A DNA stretch of 63,174 bases from Verrucomicrobiales bacterium (lineage in GTDB: Bacteria > Verrucomicrobiota > Verrucomicrobiia > Verrucomicrobiales > DEV007), in assembly GCA_029233965.1 (NCBI GenBank), contig JARGOP010000014.1, positions 25,950 through 89,123 of the forward strand. Direction: 5' to 3'. Below are positions 751-60,454 of the stretch, piece after piece. The position numbers and the translations under genes were made by a program. Under the pieces are notes generated by a model. The model saw only the letters and a program-made list of their open reading frames with translations, had not been told where the DNA came from and ran no database searches. Each line of letters opens with the position of its first letter. Position 1 is the first letter of the stretch.

Positions 751-3700
751 TCGTCGAGAAATTTAAAATAGATGACACGATACTTGATCGCCGGTTGCGG
801 AGGGTTGTAGGCCTCCTCGAGACTGCTCGAAGTCCACCTGACACTGCCAAGGGCTCTCGATGCGTATTCGTCCATCTCCACTTCCTGAGGTCCGTCAAAC
901 CAGGGATACATACCGTTCGGATCGAGTGTCAGCCGGTTCCCTCCTCCCTTTCTCAGGGGGGGCGAGCCGGGGAGCTGAAAAAGGGTGTCTGTTGTGGTGC
1001 CGTCCCACCCACTGGTGGACTGATTCTGACGCGCGAGCCGATCCCATCGCCCCATCGAATCGGCATGGGCATTTCCGGGCCGCCCATCCCGCCCAGGCCA
1101 GATGTATCGTTCGATGAGGGCGTAGAAACGCTTCTCTGCCAAAACCTGATCACCATCCTCAAATTCCCCCCACTCCGTGTGCCCGGGAATTTTCCGGACC
1201 ACTTGCGCCGCGCCCCAGAGTCCGAAGGTATTGGACTGCGTCGTGAGGCAGCCTGCCATGTTGCGGAGAAACTCCTCGTTCTCAAATTCGGTCGCGCCCG
1301 GAGTGCTGCGTTGATATCCCTCCACTTTCGAAAGCTCCCCGATGTAGCGGAAAAAATCATACTCCTGGTATGCCTTGATCCCTGAAACGAACTGATCGAT
1401 TTCCGCATCCGGCCGAAGATGGGCAAAGACCGCTTCGAGCGGCTTCGTTCGCGGAGGCGGGCGGAACCATTCGTTACTTTCTGGATAGATCCGCGAATTC
1501 AGATTGATCTGACCGGCCGTACTGTTCATGAACGAAACCGTGGAAAACTCATCCGGGAGGGTCGAATTGATCTTCCATTGATCGTGCTGCATGGGATAGG
1601 TTGCCCCGAGAAGATTCAAAAGGAGAGAATCCGGTGGATCTCCGGATTCAAGTCGCCCTCCGAGGTTGAGGGTTCGCCAGGGCTCCCGACTCTGGATCCC
1701 GGTGTGAAGGACACTCCAGTATCCTTTTGAGGAAACGCGACTCCGTGAGTTGTATTCATCGGGCCGGTTAAGTCCAAAGGTTTTCCCGGCGGATTTTTCC
1801 GGGTCGCGCGCGCTCCCGGGGCCTCTTTGAAAATATCGGAACTTGCTCCGCTCTGAGGCCGTTCTTTCCGGCTCGAGGAGCGTTCCCCCGATCGCATTCG
1901 GAGAACCGGGAGTGCCTCCACCCTCCGTATCGATGATCCACTCCTCTTTATGTGAGCTGAGGCGGGGATCATTGATCTGCCAGGATACCGTTTCCCGGTC
2001 GCCGGTTCGAAGATCAAGGGAGAAGGTGGCCTGAAGCGTGTCCTCCTCATCTTCCCCCAAAGGAATCATCTGACGGGGTCGCCTACTGTCCGAACTCACC
2101 GTCATTCCAAGCCGCCAATTCACCTTAAAGCTGATCCGGGGATTCTTCCTGATATCTATCTCGGCCGCTTCATCGCTGATATCGGGCTGGTTGTCCTCAG
2201 GATTAGCGAGGAAACGGGACCGTTTTCCAAGGTATCGCCACGGGCTTGAGACGAGAACCCGGTTCTGGACGACTTTATTCGGGTGAAAATCGGAGGCGAT
2301 CCTTACTTTGTTTCCTGCCACCGCGCTGAGAGAGCCGAGACTGCGGCGATCGACAAGTCTCTTGGGTTTTCCATTACGGTTAAAGAGGACCTCACCGGTC
2401 TCATCATCAACCCGGTTCTTCGAGGGGTTGTAGTTCCAGTTTCGATCCGGACGACCCTCCCCCGCTTCTCGATTTGGCGGTCCCAACTCATAGATCGCCG
2501 GCACCCCGGGGATTCCGCCACCCATTTCTACTTTGAAATAATCGACGCGCATCGGGAGCGCGTTCAGATACGCAACCGGGCCGAGTCCATGCATGAAATA
2601 TTCCACTTCATATCGCACCCCTATCTGTCGCTTCGTGGGACTCCCTCCGGGAGCTGGGAATGATTTAAAGTGAAGACGAACTTCCGTGATGTGCGGTCCC
2701 GGGGTCTGGGGAAGCATTGGGATCGTCTCTGCCGGACCTGCCCCGGGCGGCTCTAAGTCCACCTCCCAGTAGTGCCGCTCCGGGTTCGCCTTCGGCCGCT
2801 CGGTCGCATGCGGCGAATAGAGAACCGAAGTCGATCGAAGGCCAAGGTCCCGGGTCGAATTGATTTCCATCTTCGCTCTCATCGTTGTCGTCGCCATCCG
2901 GGCCATGGTGAGCATGTTCAGAGCGATCTGGTAACATTCCGCCTCGCCGTATTTCCCGATAAAACTTTTTCCATAGCCGGGCCACTCCCGGGAAAAATAG
3001 CGCATCAGCATTTCCAACTGGGCACGATTCACCACATTGGCGGCGTGAACTTTCCCTTTCTCTTCATCTTCGAACTCATGCGTAAACCCGAGACTTCCGA
3101 GTAGAGAATTGAGGTGAAGAACTCCGCTGATCTCGTAGTCGGGATCTTTTACTTCAGGACCGTTGTAAACGAAAGGAAGCTGATAAAGCGGACCGGCTTC
3201 CAGCGAAAGCGGATAGTTCGTCGTAAAAAAACGGGAGCGCCCAAAAGCATTGAATTCCGGAGCACGACTATAAAACGTGAGATGAAATTTATTTCGATGA
3301 TACCATTCCTGCCGGTCCCTCTCCGGCATATCGACGAATTCGAGAATCGATTCGGGGTACCGGCTGAATCCGCGAAGCCACGCATGCGCTAGAAGCTTCT
3401 CCTCGAGAAGATCCTTCCGATCGTCAAAGAGAACGTCGAGGTTGATAGAGCGCGGCTGTCCGAGGCCCCATTCGCGATCCTGACTCTTGGCGTTAAACTC
3501 CACATCTCCGGCTCCACCGGTAAAAAGCGGTGGCATCATTCCGAGAGCATATTGCTCGTAGAAACGCTCCGTGTCGACCTTCCCCCGCGACGGCTTTCCC
3601 AGCGCGACATTGAAATTGATCCGTGCGCTCTCGTCATCGATCCAGAACGCATACCGTGAGGAAATTGGATTATCTGAATCAGCAGGTTCCCCGGGGTTCC

Positions 3701-4250
3701 GGAGGACTGGTACCCACTTCACTCTCATCGGGGGGATCTCAGCGTTACTCCCGGCGCGATCTCCTTCCGACATGACAATGGGGGGAAATTCTCTTCCGGG
3801 AATTGGTTCGTTCAAGTCGACTGAGGAGACATCGGGGTCAATGGTGTCGTTCGGATCGCTCTCCGCGACTCCGGTGTGGAGAGGGACATAAACGATGCTC
3901 CCGCTGTCATCAAACAGAGTGATCCGGCCCGGATTGACCGCCCAGTTGCGCGCCGGGGTTCCCGCCGCCGATTCATGAATCATGGAGGGCTCCGGGATCG
4001 CTGTCCTCAGGATATCGATACCATGACTGACGGTTCCCTGCGCCACCATCTTCACTTCCTGAGTGTGAGCAAATGCATGAGCAGCCCTCTGCTCGATCTG
4101 CATCGTGCTGAAGTAGGCCAATGTCAGGATCGCGAGCATGGAGACTACCAGCAGGACCATGACCAACGCCCCCCCCCGACGGGAGAACCTTCTTCCATCC
4201 GATCGATCCGGAAGGAAGACTGAATGGCGCGGAGGTTCGATCATTCTCAC
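747..4250 (-). CDS. Verru_Chthon cassette protein A (large pilin-associated protein)
   Basis: Encodes 1167 residues. After about 25 basic residues comes one hydrophobic segment (residues about 27-48, GGALVMVLLVVSMLAILTLAY) and then a long extracytoplasmic region, the layout of PilX/GspK-like minor pseudopilins. Length, position and partners match the Verru_Chthon cassette protein A family, known from Verrucomicrobium and Chthoniobacter as one of four genes found together. It overlaps gene C upstream and the 222-residue gene downstream by 4 bases each. The role is unproven; by analogy with type II secretion and type IV pili it may sit at the tip of, or be carried by, a short pseudopilus. Confidence 0.85.
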   Translation of the reverse strand: MRMIEPPRHSVFLPDRSDGRRFSRRGGALVMVLLVVSMLAILTLAYFSTMQIEQRAAHAFAHTQEVKMVAQGTVSHGIDILRTAIPEPSMIHESAAGTPARNWAVNPGRITLFDDSGSIVYVPLHTGVAESDPNDTIDPDVSSVDLNEPIPGREFPPIVMSEGDRAGSNAEIPPMRVKWVPVLRNPGEPADSDNPISSRYAFWIDDESARINFNVALGKPSRGKVDTERFYEQYALGMMPPLFTGGAGDVEFNAKSQDREWGLGQPRSINLDVLFDDRKDLLEEKLLAHAWLRGFSRYPESILEFVDMPERDRQEWYHRNKFHLTFYSRAPEFNAFGRSRFFTTNYPLSLEAGPLYQLPFVYNGPEVKDPDYEISGVLHLNSLLGSLGFTHEFEDEEKGKVHAANVVNRAQLEMLMRYFSREWPGYGKSFIGKYGEAECYQIALNMLTMARMATTTMRAKMEINSTRDLGLRSTSVLYSPHATERPKANPERHYWEVDLEPPGAGPAETIPMLPQTPGPHITEVRLHFKSFPAPGGSPTKRQIGVRYEVEYFMHGLGPVAYLNALPMRVDYFKVEMGGGIPGVPAIYELGPPNREAGEGRPDRNWNYNPSKNRVDDETGEVLFNRNGKPKRLVDRRSLGSLSAVAGNKVRIASDFHPNKVVQNRVLVSSPWRYLGKRSRFLANPEDNQPDISDEAAEIDIRKNPRISFKVNWRLGMTVSSDSRRPRQMIPLGEDEEDTLQATFSLDLRTGDRETVSWQINDPRLSSHKEEWIIDTEGGGTPGSPNAIGGTLLEPERTASERSKFRYFQRGPGSARDPEKSAGKTFGLNRPDEYNSRSRVSSKGYWSVLHTGIQSREPWRTLNLGGRLESGDPPDSLLLNLLGATYPMQHDQWKINSTLPDEFSTVSFMNSTAGQINLNSRIYPESNEWFRPPPRTKPLEAVFAHLRPDAEIDQFVSGIKAYQEYDFFRYIGELSKVEGYQRSTPGATEFENEEFLRNMAGCLTTQSNTFGLWGAAQVVRKIPGHTEWGEFEDGDQVLAEKRFYALIERYIWPGRDGRPGNAHADSMGRWDRLARQNQSTSGWDGTTTDTLFQLPGSPPLRKGGGNRLTLDPNGMYPWFDGPQEVEMDEYASRALGSVRWTSSSLEEAYNPPQPAIKYRVIYFKFLDE

Positions 4251-44170: not shown

Positions 44171-44893
44171 ATGGATTCTGACCCGGAAAAGGGAATCCGC
44201 CTGAACAAGTTCCTGGCCTCTTGCGGGGTCGGCTCCCGGAGAGGTGTCGAAAAACTGATTCAGGAAGGTCGCGTTGAGATCAACGGGAAAATGGTCCTCG
44301 ATCTCAGTACCCGCGTCGTCCCTGATGATCACGTCAAATGCGACGGAAAGCTCCTCCAGGAGAAATCGCCGCTGACACTCGTTCTGAATAAACCGATCGG
44401 CTTCCTCTGCACCCGGGATGACCCTGAGCGGCGCAAGACGATCTATGAGCTGATCCCCCGCAAGTTTGAGTTTCTCACCTATGTCGGCCGACTTGACTAC
44501 AACAGCTCAGGTCTGATTATCATGACCAACTCAGGTGAGTTAACCGAGCATCTCACTCATCCCCGATTTCATGTTGAGAAAGAGTATGAGGTGACCCTGG
44601 AGCATCCTTTCGACGAAGAGCAGACCTTTAAACTGCTCGAAGGAATTCACATGACTGAAGGACTCGCCAAAGCCGAGTCGGTGAAGTTTGAAACGAGGCG
44701 CCGACTTCGCATGGTCCTGACCCAGGGATACAATCGTCAAATTCGACGCATGTTTTCAAAGCTGGGATACAAGGTGAAACGACTGGAGCGCATCCGAATC
44801 GGCAATCTGACCCTTCCCGCCCTCTCGACAGGAGAGTATCAGATTTTGAACCACCGTGAAATTGAACTCGCGGCAGCAAGGCGAAAACCCTAG
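44171..44893 (+). CDS. rluB: Pseudouridine synthase of the RsuA/RluB/RluF family
   Basis: Encodes 240 residues: an S4 RNA-binding domain (about 9-70, IRLNKFLASCGVGSRRGVEKLI) and a catalytic domain with the nucleophilic Asp in GRLDYNSSGLIIMTN, plus LTQGYNRQIRRMFSKLGYKVKRLERIRIG near the end. It isomerises uridines in rRNA; the exact site (RluB for 23S 2605, or RsuA for 16S 516) cannot be told from the sequence. Its stop overlaps the convergent SGNH-like gene by 4 bases. Confidence 0.9.
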   Translation: MDSDPEKGIRLNKFLASCGVGSRRGVEKLIQEGRVEINGKMVLDLSTRVVPDDHVKCDGKLLQEKSPLTLVLNKPIGFLCTRDDPERRKTIYELIPRKFEFLTYVGRLDYNSSGLIIMTNSGELTEHLTHPRFHVEKEYEVTLEHPFDEEQTFKLLEGIHMTEGLAKAESVKFETRRRLRMVLTQGYNRQIRRMFSKLGYKVKRLERIRIGNLTLPALSTGEYQILNHREIELAAARRKP

Positions 44894-47103
44894 TATATCC
44901 GGACCGACCAGCTCGGCACGGGCTGGCGGGAGAGTCGGAGAGTAGAGAGCGAGCGGGCGTCCTCTTCCGGGAACCCGTGAATCGTCTGATTCTCAAATGC
45001 GTAGGTGGGGCTGTGGGTCACAAAACGTTTCAGTGCCGGAAAAGGATCGGAAGCATTCGGATTCTCATCCGCCACTGTAATCTCAAGCCGCACTCCCAAC
45101 ATCGATTCCAGGGAATCCAGCGCCCATTCGTGCTGGTGCAGATACGTTCTCGGCACTCGAATTTCGAGCTGCCTCACTCCTTCCGGAGTCGTTTCAAGAA
45201 CGGAAGTGATCCCACGCGGATCGAGGATCATATTGTAGCCGTTTCCGAATGAACCCAACTCGATCGCAGGGGCAAAGCCCGGGCCATCCGTTCCTTTCGT
45301 GAATATCTCAACCGGCCGGATTGCCCCGAAGGTCCCCACTTCGTTCAGGCTCCTTGCGTCGAGAAAGAGCCGCGCCTGCAACGCAGCGCGATCACCGAGA
45401 TCCGGGATGCTCACCCTATCCAGGGAGGCAATGACGTAGAGCGCATTCTCATCCGCATCAAATCGCGCGCTCACACTTGAAGCAGGGCGACGGCGTGCTG
45501 TATCTACCAGCGTGGGAGGAGCGTTGACATAATCTTCCCAACCTCGCATCTCCATCTCCTCTCCCAGAACCAAATCCCTTGTCGCCTCCAGTTCCCTGGC
45601 GAATCGCGTCACATTTCCATCCACTTCAATCTGTATCCAGACGCTCTCCTGGAAGGCGTGCGAATCCTCCGGAGAAAATTGGAACAGGGAGAAGACAGTC
45701 TTGGTTCCCAACGGGGAAACCGAGAAACTGGTGGGCTCCCCGACCCGATCACCCAGCGCTACCTGAAAGGTTCCTGAAACCGGTTTGTCGGAACCGTTAA
45801 CGAGATCCCACTCGACCCGCATCCGGTCCGTGACGTTCACAAACTGCCTCGACTTCCAGACGGCCGTGATCGGTCCGATTCTGACCGGAAGATCCACGAT
45901 CTCGGAACCGTAGGTATCCTCGAGGAAAAAGCTGAATCTTCCGAACTCATCGGAAGGTTCCAACGGAAAAAGAATGTCGGAACCATCTTTCATTTTTCCG
46001 ATAATGGGACGGCGGTAGGTAAACTCAACCTGAGTCATCGCGTTCGCCGGAACGGAAAACCTTTCCGCTGTTTTTTCAGGAATCAATCCATTCCCTGCGG
46101 CGAGAGCACTGACGGTGCCACCCTTCGCCTCAGAGGTCTGATTCTGGATCGCCATCGCGAGTGTCACCGTTCCATTGTCGTTAAACCTCGCCACTCCGGC
46201 ATAAGTGAAATCGGAAAGGCGGGGACCGTCCAGCAGCTCGTCATACATCGAAGCTCCCAGAAAATCGTTCACCTTAAGGGCGGGATGCACTTTCTCACGA
46301 ACATCCAGTTCGGGCCCGTAGTTGAAGATTCTCGATAAGCGGTCCTGTACGATATCGGCGGCGGCCGCAGCTTCCGTATTGGGATCAACACCACCTCCGA
46401 ATTTCGATAAATGCCGCCCCGCATCGATAAAAAGCGTCCCGTTTGCACGGGCCACTTCTTTTGCCGCCATTGCATAAGGACGCGTAATGCCCCACTCGAC
46501 TTCCCCTGCTCCGAAATTCACCAGAGTTGGAGCGAAGACGATCATATCGACCTTCTCACGCCGTCCAATATCGATAATTTCCTGCAACGCCAGCTTGTAG
46601 GTGTCGATTGGAATGCGCCCTAGAGAATCATAGATCCCGAACTGAACGAGAAACAGATCCGGGTTATGAAGGTAGGCATCGGTCCCTGAAGTTCGAAGTC
46701 CAGTGAGGATAGTTCCATCGATGCGGGTCAGATTCTCAAGAGTGATCTCATCGCCAAGGTACCCCGAGCGTTTTGCGGTTCCATTTGGAGGAGGGTTCAA
46801 CAGTCGAACCCCTGCAGGATAGAAAAACTCGCGAGCCAATTGGTCGAGGAAGACTCCGGTATAGGAAAAAAGTGGATTGTTTACCTCCCATGCAGACGGC
46901 AGCGGGGTGTAGCCTCCCATGACACTGTCTCCGATCGCCACGACATGAACGGGATCGCGAGCTTCCAATTTGGGAAACGTTCGCGGCATGTATTGCTTGA
47001 AGCGCTGTCGCTGCTCAAGCGTCAGGGGGTAGTCCGCCCGGACCGGTATCAGGAACACCGTCCCAAACAGGAAAATGGCTGAAAGTGCCACGAAAAATCT
47101 CAT
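44890..47103 (-). CDS. Large exported protein with an SGNH-hydrolase-like domain
   Basis: Encodes 737 residues from the ATG at 47103 (signal peptide MRFFVALSAIFLFGTVFLIPVRA). Residues about 35-270 resemble SGNH/GDSL esterases: VHVVAIGDSVMGGY (block I, Ser of GDS), FLVQFGIYDS (block III-like) and REKVHPALKVNDFLG (block V-like Asp/His, V-HPALK). The remaining 460 residues are beta-rich modules, the last resembling a carbohydrate-binding domain (FDADENALYVIASLDR ... RLFLDARSLNEVGTFG). It may remove acyl groups from a polysaccharide outside the cytoplasm. The block III Asn is replaced (FGIYD), so activity is not certain. Confidence 0.7.
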   Translation of the reverse strand: MRFFVALSAIFLFGTVFLIPVRADYPLTLEQRQRFKQYMPRTFPKLEARDPVHVVAIGDSVMGGYTPLPSAWEVNNPLFSYTGVFLDQLAREFFYPAGVRLLNPPPNGTAKRSGYLGDEITLENLTRIDGTILTGLRTSGTDAYLHNPDLFLVQFGIYDSLGRIPIDTYKLALQEIIDIGRREKVDMIVFAPTLVNFGAGEVEWGITRPYAMAAKEVARANGTLFIDAGRHLSKFGGGVDPNTEAAAAADIVQDRLSRIFNYGPELDVREKVHPALKVNDFLGASMYDELLDGPRLSDFTYAGVARFNDNGTVTLAMAIQNQTSEAKGGTVSALAAGNGLIPEKTAERFSVPANAMTQVEFTYRRPIIGKMKDGSDILFPLEPSDEFGRFSFFLEDTYGSEIVDLPVRIGPITAVWKSRQFVNVTDRMRVEWDLVNGSDKPVSGTFQVALGDRVGEPTSFSVSPLGTKTVFSLFQFSPEDSHAFQESVWIQIEVDGNVTRFARELEATRDLVLGEEMEMRGWEDYVNAPPTLVDTARRRPASSVSARFDADENALYVIASLDRVSIPDLGDRAALQARLFLDARSLNEVGTFGAIRPVEIFTKGTDGPGFAPAIELGSFGNGYNMILDPRGITSVLETTPEGVRQLEIRVPRTYLHQHEWALDSLESMLGVRLEITVADENPNASDPFPALKRFVTHSPTYAFENQTIHGFPEEDARSLSTLRLSRQPVPSWSVRIY

Positions 47104-47149
47104 ATCGTTCAACTGCGGAACCATAAACGACGGGTCCCCCTGATTCCTT

Positions 47150-47195: not shown

Positions 47196-50100
47196 TCAGG
47201 AAGGTTTCGACGAACCCAAATGCTTCTCCCGGAAGGCGGCAATCCCGTCCTCCGGCAGGAAGAATCCTGCCATCTGCAACTTCGCCGGGGTCACTCCCAG
47301 TTCTTCGAGAAACTCAAAGTGGGCGAGCGCATCTGCATTTTCGAGCGGTCCAACCGTAGGCGCCACGTCCTCACTCAATCCGGTGAGCAGGCTGACGAGA
47401 ACACATCCCGTGATCTCATTCTTATCCCGGCTACTGAGGAACTTCACAAACCTGAACTGGACCGCGTCGTCCATTTCTTCGACTCCTTCGGGAAGATAGA
47501 TGGTTTCCGCAACCACGTCAGTCATCTTGAGTTCACCGCCCGTGGTGAAAAGGATGTCACGCTCCGTCGTGAAACGCCGGATCGCTTCGTCGACGCGGAA
47601 TACGGGTGGGAAACTGTAGTCGACCACCAGAGTGCCCGGCTTCAGTGACTTCACGTTGAGCACGCCGGGAAGGTTCGTCGAAGCAACGACAAGGGATCCT
47701 TCGTATACCTCAGGAGGGAGAGCGCCACCGTTCTTCACAATATCTACCTGTCCTATGAACCCGGCATCACGAACCTGATCGCGGATGCGACTCATCTGAT
47801 CGTCGGTCTGGTAAGGATCGCAAAGGATGAGATGCTTGGGATGATCCATAACATCAAGCATCAATCGAAGCGTTCCAAATCCGATCGATCCAAGTCCTAC
47901 AACGGAAACCGTCTCACCTGCGAGCTCACGTTTCGCCTCAGCGAGGATTCCCTCGACAGATTTCACGATTGTCGCCGAGCGGGTCGCGTCACCGGTGGTG
48001 ATCGCCGGAAGCCCCACAGTTCCCTCCATCCACTTCTCGATGTCGCGACCATGATCCGTTGTCGCCGGAATCACTCCGGTGAGCGAAACATTCTTCGCTC
48101 CCGCTTTGCCTGCCATTTCGAGAGCAGCCAGCGTTGCCGACTTAACCGATGCGGGATCTTTGTAGAGATCAGCCTCAAAGCAAGGAAGCATGATCACACC
48201 GATCCTGCCCTGGTTAAGCGTGTAGGTATTGCTGAGGAGTGGCTTCCCGCTGAAAAGACGCTCGGAGATTTCATCCCGCTTCATGCCGGAAATGCCGGCA
48301 AGCACGTCGGGAATGTAAGTGAGAGCAACCGCATCCAGATCAGGCAGTTCATCAACCGCATCTTCCACGTCAATGTGAGCGAGGTCTTCGATATCGATGT
48401 CACCAAGACTCTCCGCAGCTTCCGCCTCGGCGGGAATCCCGGCAGCCGGAGTCTCTCCTTCGAGATAACCCGCCAACTGCTCAATGGTTGGATGAGTCAG
48501 GAAAGCATCCACGGCAAGATCACGCTTAAACGCCTCGGAAACGTCAACGACGATTCGGAGCGCCATGAGCGAATCCCCACCCATCTCGAAGAACTGATCG
48601 GTCACACCGATGTCCTCGGAGTCGAAGTTCCGGCAGAAAATATCCCAGATCTTCTCCTCGGTCTCAGTGCGGGGCTGAACTCTCTCACCGACACTGGCGG
48701 AACCAACCTTCGGCATCGGCAACTGCTTGCGATCAATCTTTTTGTTCGGCGTCAGCGGAAATTCCGAAAGCGCGGCAAAGTAGGCCGGGATATAACTCGC
48801 GGGCAAATTTCCGGAGAGCTGGCCGCGGATCTGAGCAGCGTCGAGAGCGGGACCTTCGCTGATGTAGTATCCAACAAGACCTTCGCCCGTCGGGAGATCC
48901 TCGCGCTTCGTCACGACCGCCTGCTTGATGCCGTCGATCGCCTCCATCTGTGTTTCGATATCTCCGAGTTCCATACGGACTCCGCGAACCTTCACCTGAA
49001 AATCGACGCGGCCGAGGCACTCCAGCTTACCGTCACGATTCCAGCGAGCAAGGTCGCCGGTGCGGTAGATGCGCTGCTTTCCAAGCTCAGGAAGCTCGAT
49101 CTCCCGGAACGCGGCGGCAGTCAACTCGGGCTGATTCCGGTAGCCCCGGGCGAGGCCGTCACCACCGATCCAGAGTTCCCCGGTGAATCCCTGCGGCACG
49201 GGATGATGTTTCGCATCGAGAATGTAGACCTGCGTGTTCGCAATCGGCTTACCGATCGAAATCGCGGCATCCCCTTCTTCGATTTTCTCAACCGCAGACC
49301 AGACGGTTGTCTCAGTCGGACCATAGAGGTTCCAAAGCTCGGCTGCGGAATTCACGAGGGTATTCGCAAGTGTTCGATTCAGAGCCTCGCCACCACAGAA
49401 AATACGCAAATCGCTATTCCCCTCCCAGCCGCTGTCGAGCAGCATCTGCCAGGTTGCAGGCGTCGCCTGCATCACGGTGATGTCCTCCTCATTGAGAAGG
49501 TTCGCGAGGCGTCGCCCATCTTTCACATCCTCAGCCCCTGCCACAACCACGGTCGCACCGGCAAGGAGCGGCAGGAACATTTCGAGAAGCGAGATATCAA
49601 AGGAAAGCGTCGTCACCGCGAGAAGACGATCTTTGCTCGTGAGCCCCGGCGTCTTCTCCATGGAGCGGAGGAAGTTAACCGCAGCACGATGTGGAATCTC
49701 AACCCCCTTCGGTGTTCCTGTCGAACCGGAGGTGTAAATAATGTAGGCAAGCGAGTCGGCACTGAGACCGGTCGACGGAGGCGCTTTCGAAGTGCCTTCG
49801 ATGGCATCGAGGTCGAGAACTCTCCAGTCACCCGACGGCAATGAATCGACAAGGCGTGAGGAAGCCACGAGCGCTTTCGGTGCCGCGTCCACCAGCATCA
49901 TTTCGAGACGCTGCTGCGGGAATTCAGGGTCGAGCGGGATGTAGGTGGCTCCCGCCTTCAGGGCCCCGAGGAGAGCGGTGATCATCTTCGGAGAACGATC
50001 TGCGAGAACACCGACAGTATCACCGGGCTTTACCCCGGCTGCGATGAGATCACGCGCCACACCGTTTGCCTGACGATTCAGAGAACCGTAGGTCATGTGA

Positions 50101-53100
50101 GTTTCGCCGAAGATCACGGCCGTGTCTTCGTCACGGTCCGCGACGACAGTTTCAATCAACTCATGGAGGAGAGCGCTGTCCTCGTAATCCGACTTCGTGT
50201 CGTTAAAGTCCACGAGGACAGTCTTCTCTTCGTCACGGCCAAGCAGGTTGAGTTCCGAGAGACGGACCTCAGGATTTGCAGTGATCTCATTGAGCACCTG
50301 CTCGTAGAGCCCACTGAGTTCCAGAATCGTTGCTTCGTCGAAAAGGTCAGTATTATACTGCCAGCAACCGAAAAGCTGACCGCCCGCTTCTTCGAGCGTG
50401 AGCGTGATCTCAAACTGCGATTGACGCGTCGTGAGGTCGATCGTCTCCATCGAGAGATCACCGACGTGGAAAGTGTGACCGCCCTGACCGATCAGGAATA
50501 CGGCGATGCCGGCTTCGTCGATACCGGGCACCTTCTCCATGGAGAAACTGACCTGGAAAAGCGGAGAGCGCCCCGGATCGCGCGGGACCTTAAGACGGTC
50601 GACCATGCGGGCCAGCGGATACTGCTGGTTTTCCAGCGCTCCGTTGACACGGCGACTGTTGCTCGAAAGGAATTCAGCTACTGTTGGATCGTCCTCGACC
50701 GTGCTTCGAACCGGAACCGGATTGATGTAGTAACCCACCGTGCTCCGAAGCTCAGGCTGCGTCCGTCCCGCAAGAGGAACACCGATCACGATGTCATCCT
50801 GCTGGCAGTAGCGGTGCATGAGAATATCATAGGCCGACAAGAGAGTCGTAAAGAGCGTCACATTGTTCGCTTTCGCCAACTGATCGACCGACTCGGTCAA
50901 CTCTTCGCCAAACTGGAAGCCCAGAGTGCCGCCGTTAAAGGTCTGAATCGCCGGACGCGGGCGGTCCGTAGGAAGATCAAGAACACTCGGCGCCCCGGCA
51001 AGATGCTCCTGCCAGAACTCGTACATCTTCTCTCCCGCCTCGCTTTCGAGGTGTGCTTTCTCCCAAGTGACGAAATCAGCATAGGTTGCTTCGACAGGCT
51101 CAACCTGTGGAGTCCGGCCGGCCTTCGCGGAGAAATAGTACTCGATGAGATCCTGAATCACGACCGCCACCGACCAGGCGTCGGAGACAATATGATGCAT
51201 TGTCAGGAGAGCCACATGCGCTTCGTCCGCAGTGCGGAAAAGCTCGAGTCGCACCACGGGACCACGCTCCAGGTTGAAGGGACGACTCGCGTGCTCGCTG
51301 ATCGTCTTCTTCAACTGCTCGTCATCGAGAGAGGTGCAATCGTGCTCACGGAAATCAACGGTACGACCTTTGTGAACGACTTGCATCGGCTCTCCGTCCT
51401 TCGTCGTGAACGTCACGTCGATAAGGGGATGACGCTCGAAGAGAAGCGAGAACGCCGTCTTCATTGCATCAATGTCAAGCAACGGGCGGAACTTACCTGA
51501 GAAGTTCAAATTGTAGGCCGATGAGTTCGGCGCGAGGCGGTTCAGGAACCAGAGTGCTTTCTGACCTTCCGAAAGCGGGAAGACGTCAGGCATCACTCCG
51601 GTGGCCTCGAATTCGACAAGGCTTGCGGCATCAATACCGGCTCCAGGACCGGCAGCTCCGCCACCGGATTCGAGCAGTTTCTCAAGCACCGGCTCGGAAA
51701 GATCGCGAATGTTCGGGCCGTTAAGAACGGATCCCATCGGCATCGTCATGCCCAGTTTTTCCTCGATCCGGTTCACGAGCTCAATCGCCATGAGTGAGTC
51801 GAGTCCGAGGTTGGTCAACGGCGTATCTTTGTCGAGACGCGCGGCATCGGTGCCCAGAACCGCGCCGACCTGAGCCGCAATGAGATCTTCGACCATGCCC
51901 ATGCGCTTGTCGGCGGGCGCTTCGAGAATCCGGGCAGCCATGGAATCACCGCCACCCGAGCTTGAGCGAGGGACCACAGGGAGGAACATATTCGACCCCC
52001 CGACGGAAGGACTGAAACGGCTCAGAGCCTGCCAGTCGCATCGTGCCGCACCAAGTTGATAGATATCGGACGGCACACCGAGACTGAAGAGATAAAGCGT
52101 CTCTTCGATATTCGTCGCACCAAGTCCAACGAGTTCGAGATACTGCTGGGTCTTCTCGTTCCGTGCGACAAATCCGGCTCCTTCGATCGCACCCCAGTTG
52201 AAGGTCAGCGAAGGAAGACCCATCGAACGACGATGATGCGAAAGCTGATCGAGGAAAACGTTTCCGGCGTTGTAGTTCGACTGCTTCACTGCGCCGATGA
52301 ACGCGGAGAAGGAGGAGAAGTTGATGAAGTGCTCAAGCGGAATGTCGAGGGTCGCTTCATGCAGGTTCCACGCACCGAGCATTTTCGGAAGGAGCACACT
52401 GTCGAAGCGCTCCGTATCGAGTTCCTTGAGAAACTCGTCGTCCAGGACCATGGCCCCGTGAATAACGCCAATGAGCGGGAAATCAGACTTCTGAACCTCG
52501 GCAACGATGCGGTCGATATCGGCACGACTCGTGACGTCGCCGCGAGCATCCATGATGTTCGCGCCGGCTGCGGTAAGCTTGGCGATCTTCTCCTGAGCGT
52601 CTTCCTTCGGTCCGGAGCGACTCATGAGGGCGAAGCTGCGCGCTCCGTTGGCCATCATCCACCCGGCCAGCTCAAGGCCGAAACCACCGGCACCACCGGT
52701 AATGAGATAGGTTCCGTCACTGCGGAAGCGATGCCCCTCTTCGGTCGGCTGACCGATTTCAATCACGGGGACGTCAAAGTCGAGCACGTTCTTACCGATG
52801 TGCTTACCGGCCGCCATGAAACGGAAAGCTTCGACCACTTCAGTGATCGGAAAGACTTCGTTCGGAAGCGGCACGTAGGACTGGTCGTAGAAGAGCGCTT
52901 CAAGATCGGAGAACATCTTCGCAACGTAAGCCGGCTTGCTCTGCAGGTGCTGCGCGAGGTCAATCACGAAGAAGCTGATATTATTGCGAAGCGGTTCCAG
53001 GCCAATTTTCGAGTTACCATAGACATCCACTTTACCGATCTCCATGTAGCGCCCGAAGGTCTTGAGAACACTGAAATTCTTCGGAATGAAATCACCGGCG

Positions 53101-56100
53101 AGCGAGTTCAGGACCGCGTCGACCCCCTCCCCGTTCGTGATTCGCATGATCTCATCAGCGAACTCAAGCGTCCGTGAATCAAGGACATGATCAACGCCCA
53201 TGTCGACGAGAAGCTGGCGCTTCTCAGGAGTGCCTGCGGTCGAGAACGTGACGAGACCAAGGTGCTTCGCGATCTGGATTGCAGCCTGGCCAACCCCACC
53301 GGTTCCCGCATGAATGAGGATACTCTCCCCTTTTTCCATCCGGGCGAGCTCATTGATTGCGTAATGAGTCGTGAGGAAGACAGTCGGAAGCGTTGCCGCC
53401 TCGACGTGAGTCATCGTGTCAGGCTTCCGGAAAACCATGTCGCGATGAACCGTGACATAGCTGCGGAAACAGTAGGGAGCCATGCCGACAACATTGTCAC
53501 CGACCTTGAGGTCCTTCACATTCGCGCCGACCTTGACGACCGTTCCGGAGAAGTCATCCCCGAACCATTTGAGGTCGACGGGATTACCCGGGTAAATCCC
53601 GAGAGCCTTCATCACATCGCGGAAGTTGATTCCGCCGGCCTTGATCTGAATTTCGATCTCGTCCCCTTCCGGATCGCGACGGGTCGTCTCGTTCAACGAG
53701 AGGTTGGTGAGAATACCGGGCTTGTCGATCTGAAGTCGATAAGGAAGCACCGACCCGTCCTCCTGGACCGCGTTGCGGGTGCGGGGAGGAAAGTCCTCGG
53801 ACTTGATGCGATGCACCCGTCTTGCGTAACGACCGTTTCCGCGAAATGCGAGTTCGTGCTCTCCATCGGAGTGGAGCAACTCAGCGGCGAGATCCTCGAG
53901 TTCGAAAGCGTTCTCGTTCGGATCGAGATCGATCTGCCCCCAGCAGTATTCCGCCTGCTCATTGTTTGCGACACGGAGCAGGCCCGTGATCGGAGAGGAA
54001 GCGAGACCCGGAAGAGCCTCCCCGCGAATCACCGGCATCGTGCCCCGGGTCAGAAATGTAAAGTTCGGCTTCTGAGACCATTCACGGCTCGTGGCCAATT
54101 TGAAGAACTCGTGGGCAAAACGCACCCCCGTGTCCTGGGCTGCATTCAAGACATCGAGAGTCAACTCATCCGCTCTCGGATGATCGAGTGCCAGGGTCGA
54201 AACGAAACGCTTGAGCATGAGTCCCTCTTCATCGATGGCATCGAAAGCCGCTTCAATCTCAGCAATCGTCCCGCCGACAAGGCGCGGCTCCACTTCATCG
54301 GTTTCGAGCTTTCCGAGAAGTTTCTCCCCGAGACCGGAGGCATCCTTAGTGATGAGGATGATAGACTTCGCCGCAGCTTTCTCTTCCACCACTTCCGCAT
54401 CAATGACCTCGCCGTCATCCAACTCCTCAGGAGCCGGCTCGACCGGATCGGGTGCGCGGGCTATCAAGCAGGCCTGCTGGTTCTGCTTCGGATCCTCCGA
54501 ACTGATAAAACTATCGACACCGCGATAGCCGAGACCCGTGAGGAAGGAAATCCACTCCTCGCGGGAAAGAAGCGCAGAATCTTTCCGAAGATCAGTGTCT
54601 TTGAAACGCCACCAACCGGGAAGGAGACCGAAGACGTTATCGAGTGCGGCCCGGCGCCAGGTCACCTCGAGGAACATAAGGATTCCGTTCGGTGCGAGAG
54701 CACGCTGGAGATTCCGGAAAGTGACTCTTAAATCCTCCGTCGCGTGGATCACGTTGGACGCAAGAATGATATCAAAATGATGAGGATCAAACCCCTGAAG
54801 CTCAGGGTCCTTCTCACAATCGAACATCTTGTATTCAACGAAAGGATAGTCCTCGCCGAAGCGGTCTTCGGCGGCCTGAAGAAAGAGCGGACCATTGTCT
54901 GTGAAAACATATTCAGTCCGATCCGAGGGGAAAAGAGAAAGCAAATTACTCGTCAGAGAGCCGGTTCCCGCACCCACCTCAAGCACGCGAATAGCACGCC
55001 GCTCAGGAAGATTGGCCACCGCCGCAACGAGGGCATCACGAATCTGATCGTTAATGACCGGAAAGTCAGCTCCTTCCCGATAGAAGCGCTCCATGATGCG
55101 GGACGAACCACCGGGGAAAAGCACCTCAAGAGGATCCGTTTCTCCACTGAGAACTTCGGCGAGGTTCGGCCCGGAGAGACGCTGAAGCTCCGCTTCCGAA
55201 GCAAACTCCGGCATGTCCTCGGCCAGCTTGTCAAGATACGGCAGGGCATCTTCGTCGCCCGGAACTTCGATGACCTCCCACTCCTGATCACTCGATTGCT
55301 TGAGGAAACCGCCCTCTTCCAGAGCCGTGAACTGCCCGCGCACCAGCTTTGCATGCTGATCCGCAATCGCGAGATCCGCCATGAGGCCTTCAACCGTTAC
55401 CTTGTCGCCTTCCTTCGGATCCCATCCGAGTTGGAAGTAGGCATTGATGATGAACTGACGGGAAATCTCGTCGAGAGCGGGAAGGAAGGTGGCGTAGTGA
55501 TTCGCGAGGCCGCGTTCCCGGTAATACTTCGGAAGCTCACGATTCGCCGCAGCCACGAGTTCTTTCGGATCCGGAATATTGGCATCGCCATCCTCACGGG
55601 TCCCCTTGAGACGGGCAAGCTCCCAGCGGGCCTGATAAAGACACTTCTCGAGATCGTCCGTATTGCTTTGCTCAACCCGATCCGCCCGGAAGCCATAAAT
55701 CTCTGCGACGAGATCGCCGGCGTCGTTGTAGACATCGATATCTGCGATGATGTATTCGCGATCGTTGTCGGAATTCACTTTCGCATGCCCCCAGAGACGA
55801 AGCGGAGGGCGCTCCACATGAAGGCGGATACTGCGGATCGCGGCAGGAAGATAGAAATAATCCCGGGCGTTGGCCCCGTCGGGAATGACCTGCCCACCCT
55901 TCACGGTGTGGAAACAGGCATCAAGAACGGCCGGATGAAAGTGATGATCCGGAATGGTGTCATAGAGACCCTCCGGCGCAACGATTTCAGCAAGACACTC
56001 ACCGTCTTTTCTCCAGACATTTCGAAGGTGCTGAAAGAGAGGGCGGAACTGGTAGCCGGCCTCTTCGTAATCCTCATAGTATTCCTCGTGATCGAAGTGA

Positions 56101-59100
56101 CGCGGCAGGTCCTTTTTCACTTTCTCGAAATCAAGCTGCGGCTTCATCGGCGCGGGCTGCTTCCTGAGGACCCCCTGAGAGTTCAAATCCCACTCTCCCT
56201 TTTCACCGGTCGATGAGAACACCTGAAAGACGCGGGTAGTCGGATCAAAGACCACTTCAACCGTCGGCACTTTCTCTTCGGAAACGAAGAGCGCCTTTTT
56301 CATTTCGAGGTCCTCGACAACGTAATTCTCTTCCGGGAAAAGCTTGCGGGCAATCGCGATACCGATTTCACCATAGCCGGCGGCGGGGAAAACAACACTG
56401 TCCCAGAAACGGTGATCATCGAGCCACGTGAAGTAGCGGGGATCCAGTTCGAAACGCCAGGTCGGACGCGGCGCAGTCTGCTTCAGTCCGAGCAGCGGGT
56501 GCTCAAGCGGCGCACAGCGGAGATACTCTCCTTCTTTCGACTCAAGCCAGAACACCTCTTTCTGCCAGGCGTAGGTGGGGAGTCTCACGCCTTTCGGAGA
56601 AGCCTGGTTTACGGACTCCCAGTCGATTTCGTAGCCGTGGTTGTGAAGACGGGCGAGATTGGAAAGCAATTCGACTGATTCGTCCGTCTTGCGCTTCAGG
56701 CTGGAGAAGTAGAAGCCCTTCCGCCCCTGATCGGAAAGACACTCCATGATCGGATTCTGCAGCGCAGGGTGAGGCCCGAGTTCAAGGAAGGAATCTTCGC
56801 CGGAACGAATCAGGTTCTGGATCGCAGGCGCAAAAAGCACGGCTTCGCGAACATTGTTCCACCAATACTCGCCGTCGATCCTGGTGCCTTCATACACACC
56901 ACCGGTGACCGTCGAGATGTAGGGAATCGTCGTCGCACGCGGTTTGATGTCTTTGAGAACTTCAAGGAGTTCCTCCTTGATCGGCTCCATCTGATGCGTG
57001 TGGAAGGCATAATCAATCCGCAGCCAGCGAACAAATTTGCCCTGCTCTTCAAGTTCAGCGACCACCTCTTCCAATGGACCGGTATCCCCTGCCAGAGTGA
57101 GAAGTCCGGGGCTGTTCACCACCGCGATTTCGACCTGCTCCTCTTTCCCGACAATGGCCTTCTTGGCTTCGGCCTGAGAAAGACCGACCGCAACCATGCG
57201 GCCGTTTCCTCCCGTCTCATCCTGGAGTCGTGAACGATGATAGATAACCGTCACCGCATCTTCCATTGTGTAGGCACCGGCCACATAGGCCGCGGCAACT
57301 TCACCCACAGAGTGACCGACAACTTTCGAGGGCACAATACCCCATGACTTCCAAAGCTCGGCGAGAGCTACCTGGAGACCGAAAATCGCGGGCTGCGCGA
57401 TGTTTGTTCTGTTGATCTGCGAAGTCTCTTCATCGCGGGTCATCTCTTCAATCAGCGACCATCCTGCAAGAGGCTTGAGATGCGTGTCGATTTCCTCAAG
57501 CACTGCGCGGAAAACAGGCTCACGCTCAAGCAGTTCCTGTCCCATCGCCCACCACTGGGCGCCCTGACCGGTGAAGACGAAAACCAGCGGATGCGCCTCC
57601 CCGGAAGGTTTGCCGGGAATCGCTTTACCGCTCGCGCCGGTGGCAAGCCACTCGGTCATTTCATGGACAAAATCCTTTTTCGTCTGCGCCACAAACGCAA
57701 GACGATTGTCGTGGTGCTCCCGCTTCAATCCCGCTGCGGAACCGATCGCATTGATGTCGTCATTTGTAGCACGAAGATAACGCCGCCAGCGCTTCACGGT
57801 GTCGCGAAGAGCATCATCGCCACGGGCGGAAAGCGGCATGAGGACAGGTCGTTCCGCTTTCTTCGCAGTTCCGCCACTCAGAGTCACGGAATCCCGTTGC
57901 TCCGCTTTCGTCGGCACCTCTGCCGGAGCCGCCTCCAGCACAATGTGAGAGTTCGTCCCGCCAAAACCGAAGCTGTTCACGCCCACAACCGGAAGCCGGC
58001 CTTCAAGATGGGGAAGGGGCTGCAACTCAGTCACAACCTTGAACTTAAATTCGTCGAACGGGATATTCGGGTTCGGGTTCTTGAAATTCAGGTTTGCAGG
58101 AACCTGGTCATGATGCAGCACGAGCGCCGCTTTCGCGAGACCGGCAACACCTGACCCGGACTCAAGGTGACCGACATTTGTCTTCACTGAACCAATGAGA
58201 CAATAGTCATCCTTGTCCCGCCCCTGGGAAAGGACCTGGCCAAGGGCTCGGGTTTCAATCGGATCACCAACCGGAGTTCCGGTGCCGTGAGCTTCCATGT
58301 AGCGAACCGCTTTCGGCTCAAGACCGGCCTGCGCGTAGGCAATACGAAGCATCTCCGCCTGGGTCTCGACACCCGGCACCGTCATCGAGGAGGTATTACC
58401 GTCCTGATTGATGACTGCTGCCTTGATCGTGCAATAGATACGATCTCCATCCGCCCGGGCCTTGCTCAATGGTTTGATCACAAACATCCCGGCACCTTCA
58501 CCGCGGACGTAGCCGTTGGCACGATCATCAAAAGCAAAACACTGACCGGTCGGGGACAGCATCGTCGCTTTCGAGAAACCGATCGACGCATCCGGGGTGA
58601 TGAGAGCGTTACAACCTCCCGCCAGCGCCATGTCTGCCATTCCTGACCAGACTGATTCACAGGCCAGATTTATCGCGACGAGCGCGGACGAACATGCCGT
58701 ATCAACGGACACTGCCGGACCTTTGAAGTCGAGGAGATACGAGATGCGGTTTGAGGCAATTGAAAGTGTCGAACCGGAGTTTGTGTGCACGTCTACATTG
58801 CGCGGATCGCTCTGGGCGACGTTCGCATAATCGTTCGAAGCGATCCCGACGTAGACGGCCGTATTTGAACCACGGAGTTTGTCCGGAGCCATGCCGGCAT
58901 CTTCAAGTGACTCCCATGCTGTTTCGAGCATCCAGCGCTGCTGAGGATCCATGCGCAAAGCCTCGCGTGGGGAAATACCGAAAAATTGAGCGTCAAACTT
59001 ATCGTGGTCATGGATAAATCCACCCCACTTCGTGATCATCTTGCTCGGAATCTCAACATTCTCGTGATGCCAGCGCTCACGATTCCAGCGGTTTGAAGGA

Positions 59101-59234
59101 ACCGGAATAATCCCGGAGCGCTCTTCGACCATCATTTGCCAGAAGGATTCAGGGCCAGTCACGCCACCCGGAAGGCGGCAACCGATTCCTACGATAGCCA
59201 ACGGCTCGCGAGTCACTGATTTATTGTCAGACAT
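47196..59234 (-). CDS. Hybrid iterative-type PKS-NRPS megasynthase with AAR-like terminal domain
   Basis: One 4012-residue protein. Domains: KS 10-434 (Cys181, His316, His356); AT 550-870 (Ser642 in GHSVGE, His745 in YAFH: malonyl-CoA likely); DH 910-1190 (His941, Asp1105, but HxxxDxxxxP in place of HxxxGxxxxP); C-methyltransferase 1230-1600 (EVGAGTG 1419-1425, His1497, Glu1523); pseudo-KR 1620-1820; ER 1830-2155 (HAGTGGVGQ 1975-1983); KR 2170-2400 (TGGAGGFG 2179-2186, Lys2284, Ser2308, Tyr2321, Asn2325, LDD 2264-2266: B-type); ACP 2440-2520 (Ser2480); C 2545-2990 (HHIVSDAW 2680-2687); A 3020-3515 (core 3162-3182, glycine-like code); PCP 3520-3590 (Ser3555); acidic linker; C-terminal Rossmann domain 3636-4008 (LPCF 3683-3686, TTGDATR 3746-3752, GLGSIG 3780-3785). 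No thioesterase. It is predicted to make a reduced, methyl-branched acyl-amino product released by reduction. No partner genes are seen. Confidence 0.95.
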   Translation of the reverse strand: MSDNKSVTREPLAIVGIGCRLPGGVTGPESFWQMMVEERSGIIPVPSNRWNRERWHHENVEIPSKMITKWGGFIHDHDKFDAQFFGISPREALRMDPQQRWMLETAWESLEDAGMAPDKLRGSNTAVYVGIASNDYANVAQSDPRNVDVHTNSGSTLSIASNRISYLLDFKGPAVSVDTACSSALVAINLACESVWSGMADMALAGGCNALITPDASIGFSKATMLSPTGQCFAFDDRANGYVRGEGAGMFVIKPLSKARADGDRIYCTIKAAVINQDGNTSSMTVPGVETQAEMLRIAYAQAGLEPKAVRYMEAHGTGTPVGDPIETRALGQVLSQGRDKDDYCLIGSVKTNVGHLESGSGVAGLAKAALVLHHDQVPANLNFKNPNPNIPFDEFKFKVVTELQPLPHLEGRLPVVGVNSFGFGGTNSHIVLEAAPAEVPTKAEQRDSVTLSGGTAKKAERPVLMPLSARGDDALRDTVKRWRRYLRATNDDINAIGSAAGLKREHHDNRLAFVAQTKKDFVHEMTEWLATGASGKAIPGKPSGEAHPLVFVFTGQGAQWWAMGQELLEREPVFRAVLEEIDTHLKPLAGWSLIEEMTRDEETSQINRTNIAQPAIFGLQVALAELWKSWGIVPSKVVGHSVGEVAAAYVAGAYTMEDAVTVIYHRSRLQDETGGNGRMVAVGLSQAEAKKAIVGKEEQVEIAVVNSPGLLTLAGDTGPLEEVVAELEEQGKFVRWLRIDYAFHTHQMEPIKEELLEVLKDIKPRATTIPYISTVTGGVYEGTRIDGEYWWNNVREAVLFAPAIQNLIRSGEDSFLELGPHPALQNPIMECLSDQGRKGFYFSSLKRKTDESVELLSNLARLHNHGYEIDWESVNQASPKGVRLPTYAWQKEVFWLESKEGEYLRCAPLEHPLLGLKQTAPRPTWRFELDPRYFTWLDDHRFWDSVVFPAAGYGEIGIAIARKLFPEENYVVEDLEMKKALFVSEEKVPTVEVVFDPTTRVFQVFSSTGEKGEWDLNSQGVLRKQPAPMKPQLDFEKVKKDLPRHFDHEEYYEDYEEAGYQFRPLFQHLRNVWRKDGECLAEIVAPEGLYDTIPDHHFHPAVLDACFHTVKGGQVIPDGANARDYFYLPAAIRSIRLHVERPPLRLWGHAKVNSDNDREYIIADIDVYNDAGDLVAEIYGFRADRVEQSNTDDLEKCLYQARWELARLKGTREDGDANIPDPKELVAAANRELPKYYRERGLANHYATFLPALDEISRQFIINAYFQLGWDPKEGDKVTVEGLMADLAIADQHAKLVRGQFTALEEGGFLKQSSDQEWEVIEVPGDEDALPYLDKLAEDMPEFASEAELQRLSGPNLAEVLSGETDPLEVLFPGGSSRIMERFYREGADFPVINDQIRDALVAAVANLPERRAIRVLEVGAGTGSLTSNLLSLFPSDRTEYVFTDNGPLFLQAAEDRFGEDYPFVEYKMFDCEKDPELQGFDPHHFDIILASNVIHATEDLRVTFRNLQRALAPNGILMFLEVTWRRAALDNVFGLLPGWWRFKDTDLRKDSALLSREEWISFLTGLGYRGVDSFISSEDPKQNQQACLIARAPDPVEPAPEELDDGEVIDAEVVEEKAAAKSIILITKDASGLGEKLLGKLETDEVEPRLVGGTIAEIEAAFDAIDEEGLMLKRFVSTLALDHPRADELTLDVLNAAQDTGVRFAHEFFKLATSREWSQKPNFTFLTRGTMPVIRGEALPGLASSPITGLLRVANNEQAEYCWGQIDLDPNENAFELEDLAAELLHSDGEHELAFRGNGRYARRVHRIKSEDFPPRTRNAVQEDGSVLPYRLQIDKPGILTNLSLNETTRRDPEGDEIEIQIKAGGINFRDVMKALGIYPGNPVDLKWFGDDFSGTVVKVGANVKDLKVGDNVVGMAPYCFRSYVTVHRDMVFRKPDTMTHVEAATLPTVFLTTHYAINELARMEKGESILIHAGTGGVGQAAIQIAKHLGLVTFSTAGTPEKRQLLVDMGVDHVLDSRTLEFADEIMRITNGEGVDAVLNSLAGDFIPKNFSVLKTFGRYMEIGKVDVYGNSKIGLEPLRNNISFFVIDLAQHLQSKPAYVAKMFSDLEALFYDQSYVPLPNEVFPITEVVEAFRFMAAGKHIGKNVLDFDVPVIEIGQPTEEGHRFRSDGTYLITGGAGGFGLELAGWMMANGARSFALMSRSGPKEDAQEKIAKLTAAGANIMDARGDVTSRADIDRIVAEVQKSDFPLIGVIHGAMVLDDEFLKELDTERFDSVLLPKMLGAWNLHEATLDIPLEHFINFSSFSAFIGAVKQSNYNAGNVFLDQLSHHRRSMGLPSLTFNWGAIEGAGFVARNEKTQQYLELVGLGATNIEETLYLFSLGVPSDIYQLGAARCDWQALSRFSPSVGGSNMFLPVVPRSSSGGGDSMAARILEAPADKRMGMVEDLIAAQVGAVLGTDAARLDKDTPLTNLGLDSLMAIELVNRIEEKLGMTMPMGSVLNGPNIRDLSEPVLEKLLESGGGAAGPGAGIDAASLVEFEATGVMPDVFPLSEGQKALWFLNRLAPNSSAYNLNFSGKFRPLLDIDAMKTAFSLLFERHPLIDVTFTTKDGEPMQVVHKGRTVDFREHDCTSLDDEQLKKTISEHASRPFNLERGPVVRLELFRTADEAHVALLTMHHIVSDAWSVAVVIQDLIEYYFSAKAGRTPQVEPVEATYADFVTWEKAHLESEAGEKMYEFWQEHLAGAPSVLDLPTDRPRPAIQTFNGGTLGFQFGEELTESVDQLAKANNVTLFTTLLSAYDILMHRYCQQDDIVIGVPLAGRTQPELRSTVGYYINPVPVRSTVEDDPTVAEFLSSNSRRVNGALENQQYPLARMVDRLKVPRDPGRSPLFQVSFSMEKVPGIDEAGIAVFLIGQGGHTFHVGDLSMETIDLTTRQSQFEITLTLEEAGGQLFGCWQYNTDLFDEATILELSGLYEQVLNEITANPEVRLSELNLLGRDEEKTVLVDFNDTKSDYEDSALLHELIETVVADRDEDTAVIFGETHMTYGSLNRQANGVARDLIAAGVKPGDTVGVLADRSPKMITALLGALKAGATYIPLDPEFPQQRLEMMLVDAAPKALVASSRLVDSLPSGDWRVLDLDAIEGTSKAPPSTGLSADSLAYIIYTSGSTGTPKGVEIPHRAAVNFLRSMEKTPGLTSKDRLLAVTTLSFDISLLEMFLPLLAGATVVVAGAEDVKDGRRLANLLNEEDITVMQATPATWQMLLDSGWEGNSDLRIFCGGEALNRTLANTLVNSAAELWNLYGPTETTVWSAVEKIEEGDAAISIGKPIANTQVYILDAKHHPVPQGFTGELWIGGDGLARGYRNQPELTAAAFREIELPELGKQRIYRTGDLARWNRDGKLECLGRVDFQVKVRGVRMELGDIETQMEAIDGIKQAVVTKREDLPTGEGLVGYYISEGPALDAAQIRGQLSGNLPASYIPAYFAALSEFPLTPNKKIDRKQLPMPKVGSASVGERVQPRTETEEKIWDIFCRNFDSEDIGVTDQFFEMGGDSLMALRIVVDVSEAFKRDLAVDAFLTHPTIEQLAGYLEGETPAAGIPAEAEAAESLGDIDIEDLAHIDVEDAVDELPDLDAVALTYIPDVLAGISGMKRDEISERLFSGKPLLSNTYTLNQGRIGVIMLPCFEADLYKDPASVKSATLAALEMAGKAGAKNVSLTGVIPATTDHGRDIEKWMEGTVGLPAITTGDATRSATIVKSVEGILAEAKRELAGETVSVVGLGSIGFGTLRLMLDVMDHPKHLILCDPYQTDDQMSRIRDQVRDAGFIGQVDIVKNGGALPPEVYEGSLVVASTNLPGVLNVKSLKPGTLVVDYSFPPVFRVDEAIRRFTTERDILFTTGGELKMTDVVAETIYLPEGVEEMDDAVQFRFVKFLSSRDKNEITGCVLVSLLTGLSEDVAPTVGPLENADALAHFEFLEELGVTPAKLQMAGFFLPEDGIAAFREKHLGSSKPS

Positions 59235-59470: not shown

Positions 59471-60454
59471 TCAGGAGAGCATTGCTGCGACAGCCTCTTT
59501 TTCTTCACGCAATTCCTGTACCGAAGCCTCAATTTTCTCGCGGCTGAATTCGTCAACCGGCACATCCTGAACGATTTCCCAGTTCTCGCCGTCGGTGCGG
59601 ATCGGGAAGGAGGAGATCAATCCTTCGTCCACGCCATACGAACCATCCGAGCAAACACAAACGCTGTTCCAATCACCTTCCGGAGTCGGCGTCGTAAGGC
59701 TCTTCACAGTATCGACGACGGCGTTCGCAGCTGAAGCAGCAGAGGAAAGACCGCGGGCTTCAATGATCGCGGCACCGCGCTTCTGAACCGTCTCGATGAA
59801 GGCCCCTTTCAGCCAGGCTTCGTCAGCGATTTTTTCGGCCGCAGGAATTCCACCGATGAGGGCATTGGTGAAATCGGGGTATTGAGTCGCGGAGTGGTTC
59901 CCCCAGATCGTGGTGTTCGTCACTTCGCTGACGTGAACGCCTGCTTTCGCGGCGAGCTGGCTCTTGGCACGGTTCTCGTCGAGACGAGTCATCGCGAACC
60001 AGCGCTCTGAAGGGATTTCTTTGCCACTGTTCATCGCAATGAGGCAGTTCGTGTTGCAGGGGTTTCCCACCACGAGGGTCTTCACATCCGAAGCCCCGTT
60101 GGCGGCGATCGCCTGTCCCTGCCCGGTAAAAATCTTGCCGTTGATCCCGAGAAGGTCGGCACGCTCCATCCCGGCTTTCCTCGGAACACTGCCGACGAGG
60201 AGAGACCAGTTCGCATCCTTGAAACCGACGTTCAGGTCCGAGGAATACTGAATATCCTCAAGCAGAGGGAAGGCACAGTCATCGAGTTCCATGATAACTC
60301 CCTCGAGAGCCTTCATCGCCGGTTCGATCTCAATGAGGTTCAAAGCCACCTTTTGGTCCGGGCCGAACATCGCCCCGCTGGCGATGCGAAAAAGAAGGGA
60401 ATACCCGATTTGACCGGCAGCACCGGTGACAGCGACTCGAATTGGCTTGCTCAT
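59471..60454 (-). CDS. mdh: Malate dehydrogenase
   Basis: Encodes 327 residues. NAD-binding start [21 protein letters not shown], substrate arginines in [13 protein letters not shown] and [11 protein letters not shown], and catalytic His in [12 protein letters not shown] identify the cytosolic-type (group with long N-terminal loop) malate dehydrogenase of the citric acid cycle. Length is normal. It lies between malQ and the megasynthase, all on the minus strand, separated by 85 and 236 bases; it is not expected to be functionally tied to either. Confidence 0.96.

Follow-up and report, generated by a model that had tools for sequence, protein, structure and literature searches.

What ends a PKS-NRPS assembly line when the ~375 residues after its T domain match no Pfam family above threshold? 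We addressed this question for a synthase encoded in the window, a 63,174-nucleotide stretch of a Verrucomicrobiales genome. The synthase is a single protein of 4012 amino acids (positions 47196-59234, minus strand, as are all of its parts given below). Its open reading frame and translation, Pfam matches and motifs give the domain order KS-AT-DH-MT-ER-KR-ACP-C-A-T-R. The highly reducing PKS part (KS, AT, DH, MT, ER, KR and ACP) spans residues 10-2514 (positions 51693-59207). It is followed by a condensation domain with an HHIVSDA motif (residues 2550-3004, positions 50223-51587; Pfam E 6.6e-107), an adenylation domain supported by Pfam and TIGR01733 (approximately residues 3029-3505, positions 48720-50150), and a T (PCP) domain with a GGDSL phosphopantetheine site (approximately residues 3525-3600, positions 48435-48662). 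Pfam reports PP-binding for two stretches of the synthase.

Nearly all active-site motifs of the synthase are common to seven other full-length copies from the same genus. Both the window synthase and these seven copies carry the PKS motifs, except that L112 lacks one KS-motif match. The DH motif is atypical, reading HRFWD rather than HxxxG.

The C-terminal segment, residues 3636-4008, is a real domain. The original prediction had described it as a release domain that resembles cyanobacterial acyl-ACP reductase (AAR) and sits behind a carrier protein. Its placement is right once positions are taken on the minus strand, where 48329 to 47211 encode residues 3636-4008, and the T domain indeed precedes it. 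The order of motifs that had been claimed, LPCF (with Cys3685), VSLTGVIPATTD, ITTGDATRSATI and GLGSIG, is also borne out.

A phmmer search of PDB sequences with the release domain gave one strong match, to 9e4x/9e4s and sister entries (E 2e-69 over 376 residues; 35% identity across the whole domain). The titles of the 9e4s group, recovered with Foldseek, read 'TAD from Carmabin Biosynthetic Pathway' and include NADH and NAD complexes, released in February 2025. We read TAD as terminal amidation domain; a literature search for TAD structures or TAD enzymology found no paper. More distant relatives emerged when a profile of ten family sequences was compared with 177,635 PDB sequences, which retrieved PigE (4ppm, E 4.4e-11) and AAR (6jzq, E 3.8e-5). 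An hhalign comparison of the release-domain family with three bona fide AARs from cyanobacterial genomes gave E 1.8e-7 and a probability of 93.8%.

Fold comparisons gave the same ranking. An AlphaFold model of the release domain (pLDDT 90.3, pTM 0.90) aligned by VIA-align with carmabin TAD at Z 51.6-52.4 (369-383 residues, rmsd 1.9-2.5), with AAR at Z 28.5-29.1 (311-317 residues), and with the next folds, unrelated dehydrogenases, at Z ~13. The release domain is thus a distant AAR homologue and resembles AAR far more closely than chance would allow. The profile, hhalign and model comparisons make the AAR assignment right for fold and homology, yet a nearer relative exists. By homology, fold, cysteine and dinucleotide site, the release domain belongs to the carmabin-TAD family in the wide sense.

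Other assignments fared less well. Plain membership of the AAR family is ruled out, as the curated AAR model TIGR04058 is absent from the domain's NCBIfam matches up to E 1. No profile for an SDR-type thioester reductase or a thioesterase matches at E up to 10, as the original prediction had anticipated, and the only Pfam family reported is 2-Hacid_dh_C, below threshold. The shikimate/quinate dehydrogenase fold, proposed for comparison, is a much weaker match (Foldseek E ~1e-5, TM 0.28-0.40), far below TAD and AAR. SDR-type NRPS terminal reductases (TD/R) and fungal PKS-NRPS release domains occupy the same terminal place and often have a reductive outcome. Their catalytic design is unrelated to that of the window release domain.

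AAR carries its acyl group on Cys294 (PMC9594044), and PigE Cys296 and TamH Cys887 are the counterparts of this residue (PMC8341465, PMC9594044). In our alignments, AAR Cys294 (FACFAE) pairs with Cys3944 of the synthase (ITGCVL; codon at positions 47403-47405), which is a cysteine in 79 of the 79 homologues that have a residue there. Cys3944 also aligns with the cysteine of an 'MGC' motif in the 9e4x chain, which is Cys2238 by counting. PDB entry 9e56 is titled as a disulfide between carmabin TAD Cys2238 and dephospho-CoA. These correspondences suggest that Cys3944 is likely the catalytic cysteine and the acyl-enzyme nucleophile of the release domain.

The covalent-cysteine logic of the original prediction is therefore supported, with a different residue. 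It had nominated Cys3685 (codon at positions 48180-48182) and paired it with the cysteine of AAR's CFLPE motif, which is not AAR's catalytic residue. Of 80 aligned domains, 34 have Cys at position 3685, 23 have Arg, 8 have Ile and 6 have Leu, and the rest carry other residues. The position is variable even inside the genus, being Tyr in a same-genus relative, and is Arg in carmabin TAD. Absence from close homologues had been named as grounds for abandoning Cys3685, and it is missing from many homologues; we rule it out as the nucleophile.

A GLGSIG Rossmann loop (residues 3780-3785, positions 47880-47897) marks the dinucleotide-binding site, with Gly3780 and Gly3785 present in 80 of 80 domains. 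Residue 3806, with which the second Rossmann strand ends (codon at positions 47817-47819), is likewise Asp in 80 of 80. Because this aspartate is invariant and carmabin TAD was crystallised with NADH and with NAD, the sequence suggests that the cofactor is NAD(H) and not NADP(H). The NADPH dependence proposed at the outset is thus unsupported and probably wrong. A TTGD motif (residues 3746-3749, positions 47988-47999) corresponds to TTGH in most NRPS relatives and to TTGN in AAR.

Two further positions divide the family. Position 3877 (codon at 47604-47606) is Pro in 98% of Verrucomicrobial rows and His in 97% of NRPS-clade rows; position 3898 (codon at 47541-47543) is Thr in 100% of the former and Glu in 100% of the latter. 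In the model, these residues lie at or just past the ends of strands 3869-3872 and 3895-3898. Two Planctomycete PKS-fed domains have Pro at 3877 and Asn at 3898. AAR has Lys followed by Asn or Lys at these positions, and PigE has Arg/Asp as read off the alignment. The trio at 3749, 3877 and 3898 is thus Asp/Pro/Thr in Verrucomicrobial domains, like neither AAR/PigE nor TAD, and the Pro/Thr pair puts the window domain outside the His/Glu subclass of carmabin TAD.

The tree groups the Verrucomicrobial and Planctomycete PKS-fed domains together (support 99). Carmabin TAD falls within a separate, mostly NRPS-fed group (support 83), and AARs fall outside. The association between PKS feeding and Pro/Thr is drawn from no more than two independent lineages and does not amount to a statistical test; the split might stem from the type of substrate, from the chemistry or from ancestry.

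Which chain reaches the release domain is indicated by the adenylation code, DILQFGLVWK. The code positions were located with a GrsA reference sequence. Every Verrucomicrobial row whose code could be read has DILQ(F/L)GL(V/I)WK. We take DILQFGLVWK to be a glycine-type code; a literature search for this exact code as a glycine code found no paper. A related code, DILQLGMIWK, has been reported to activate glycine. The carrier-bound chain is, on this reading of the code, likely an N-acyl-glycine thioester.

We propose that this domain frees the finished chain from a highly reducing PKS-NRPS built as one protein and does so reductively, as N-acyl-glycinal, a reading to which we give about an even chance. 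From its motifs, the PKS part would make a reduced, C-methylated acyl chain, which the C, A and T domains would condense with glycine to give N-acyl-glycyl-S-T. The phosphopantetheine arm would then enter the release domain and pass the acyl group to Cys3944, as the Cys2238-dephospho-CoA disulfide of TAD suggests. By analogy with the chemistry of AAR, PigE and TamH, NADH bound at GLGSIG and Asp3806 would reduce the acyl-Cys thioester to N-acyl-glycinal. In keeping with this product, the His/Glu pair that marks the TAD clade is missing from PKS-fed members, as it is from AAR and PigE. Against it count the Asp/Pro/Thr trio, which resembles neither AAR/PigE nor TAD, the atypical DH motif, and the finding of no dedicated aldehyde-consuming enzyme among the immediate neighbours of the window gene.

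The aldehyde foreseen by the original prediction is plausible; it cannot be assumed, because the pathway of the nearest solved relative ends in a primary amide. Terminal amidation is the main alternative for the same reason: carmabin A, vatiamides E and F, dragonamides and hectoramide B all have primary-amide ends (PMC10949194). Ammonia would here attack acyl-Cys3944 to give N-acyl-glycinamide, with NAD(H) in a structural or hydrogen-borrowing role. The domain at the same place in HcaD and VatR is annotated as amidating, by a mechanism called unstudied in 2024 (PMC10949194). A 1962-residue Moorena protein at locus L074 is organised as described for HcaD, and its terminal domain is 90% identical to the solved one. 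Its code is of the Val type and its A domain is interrupted, consistent with an N-MT insert. Against amidation in the window clade stand the replacement of His3877 and Glu3898 by Pro and Thr, and a sulfotransferase adjoining the domain in relatives, which an amide end would leave without a C-terminal hydroxyl. We regard amidation as possible, though not the probable outcome.

In six diverged Verrucomicrobial loci (L054, L056, L057, L058, L059 and L060), the gene for this sulfotransferase (PF13469-type) starts 28-107 bp downstream of the release domain and shares its strand. The window genome carries a homologue that is 45% identical (G000:C137:30669-31766), and nearly every genus member has one, elsewhere than the synthase locus. 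Where its context was examined, the genus gene either has lpxB as its neighbour, as in the window genome and three further genomes, or lies beside other genes, never beside the synthase. The arrangement in the diverged relatives suggests that N-acyl-glycinal may later be reduced to N-acyl-ethanolamine and O-sulfated, although the sulfotransferase may act on a polyketide hydroxyl instead.

A four-electron release, in which the domain itself or a partner reduces the aldehyde further, to a primary alcohol that is then sulfated, would fit both the adjoining gene and the near-ubiquity of its homologues in the genus. We nonetheless think it quite unlikely, given that the literature has AAR, PigE and TamH forming aldehydes and that the sulfated hydroxyl could sit on the acyl chain. 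Least likely of all is a non-redox release by hydrolysis or cyclisation with a vestigial NAD site, for although positions 3749, 3877 and 3898 differ from those of all characterised relatives, GxGxxG, Asp3806, Asp3872, Ser3874 and Cys3944 vary little or not at all from phylum to phylum, which fits a cofactor site in use.

The release domain is not confined to this synthase. We scanned 84,980 species genomes and identified 211 related stretches, from which 79 loci were kept. Members of the family end PKS-NRPS, NRPS and PKS proteins or stand alone, and occur in about a dozen phyla, including Verrucomicrobiota, Cyanobacteriota, Planctomycetota, Chloroflexota and Pseudomonadota. Of six cyanobacterial genomes searched, four have true AARs as well as members of the family. 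Two cyanobacterial loci (L062 and L071) have broken-looking release-domain frames, through either assembly error or decay. Stand-alone versions were identified in Pantoea, Hahella, Erwinia and Robbsia (L016, L082, L084, L086 and L089), and the Pantoea version lies within an NRPS cluster that encodes a MupA/Atu3671-type luciferase-like monooxygenase. Two Planctomycetes and one Alphaproteobacterium (L079, L083 and L087) have a gene of the fatty-acid-desaturase family near their PKS-fed release domain.

Within the genus of the window genome, the domain is present in 26 of 26 other members that are at least 79% complete. No other genus among the 57 compared genomes has it. The synthase gene is flanked by a malate dehydrogenase gene and an SGNH-like gene, and this housekeeping setting is conserved. 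The SGNH-like gene, downstream of the synthase (positions 44890-47124, minus strand), encodes a 744-residue SGNH/GDSL-hydrolase-like protein, for which Lipase_GDSL_2 falls just under the Pfam cut-off; it adjoins the synthase in most genus members.

Among the compared genus members, conservation of the KS (positions 58083-59207) exceeds that of the malate dehydrogenase next to it (positions 59471-60454), for example at 98.1% versus 96.9% in G012. In another genus member (G020), an in-frame TGA reflects either an assembly error or decay.

How much of this release system is new? The original prediction had called it a new chain-release type, a description that TAD structures (February 2025), the amidating annotation of HcaD and VatR by 2024 (PMC10949194) and, earlier, PigE and TamH do not allow. 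Carmabin TAD (9e4s, 9e4u, 9e4x, 9e50 and 9e56), from Moorena-type cyanobacteria, shares the fold and the catalytic-type cysteine, and its near-identical relatives are also C-terminal to a carrier protein. It differs in being NRPS-fed and in having His/His/Glu where the window domain has Asp/Pro/Thr. AAR (6jzq and 6jzy) shares the overall fold, the TTG motif, the cysteine and a thioester-to-aldehyde logic. In contrast to the window domain, AAR stands alone, uses NADPH, lacks an Asp at 3806 and is only 16-18% identical. The N-terminal domain of PigE and the C-terminal domain of TamH are likewise AAR-like covalent-cysteine thioester reductases that act on carrier-bound acyl groups; they differ from the window synthase in being fused to PLP aminotransferases rather than to an NRPS and in using fatty acyl substrates. 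New here are a PKS-fed subclass that Pro3877 and Thr3898 set apart from the TAD-type His/Glu subclass, the breadth of its occurrence and its nearly core status in one genus, together with the glycine-type adenylation code and the sulfotransferase that adjoins the domain in diverged relatives.

These observations show that NRPS and PKS lines are widely ended by a release domain that is related to AAR, is of the NAD(H) type and has no Pfam model. The two subclasses differ in active-site residues and thus pose a testable question: do they produce different C-termini? Both protease inhibition and biocatalysis are areas in which aldehyde and amide ends are important. We can envisage, as a speculative and rather doubtful extension, one fold with two chemistries, in which NRPS-fed His/Glu domains amidate and PKS-fed Pro/Thr domains reduce. 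The product of the genus would then be a sulfated N-acyl-aminoethanol lipid, a look-alike of taurine lipids, made as a core trait rather than as an accessory antibiotic. That nearly every member of the genus carries the synthase, amid housekeeping genes, also suggests a lipid with a structural or physiological role.
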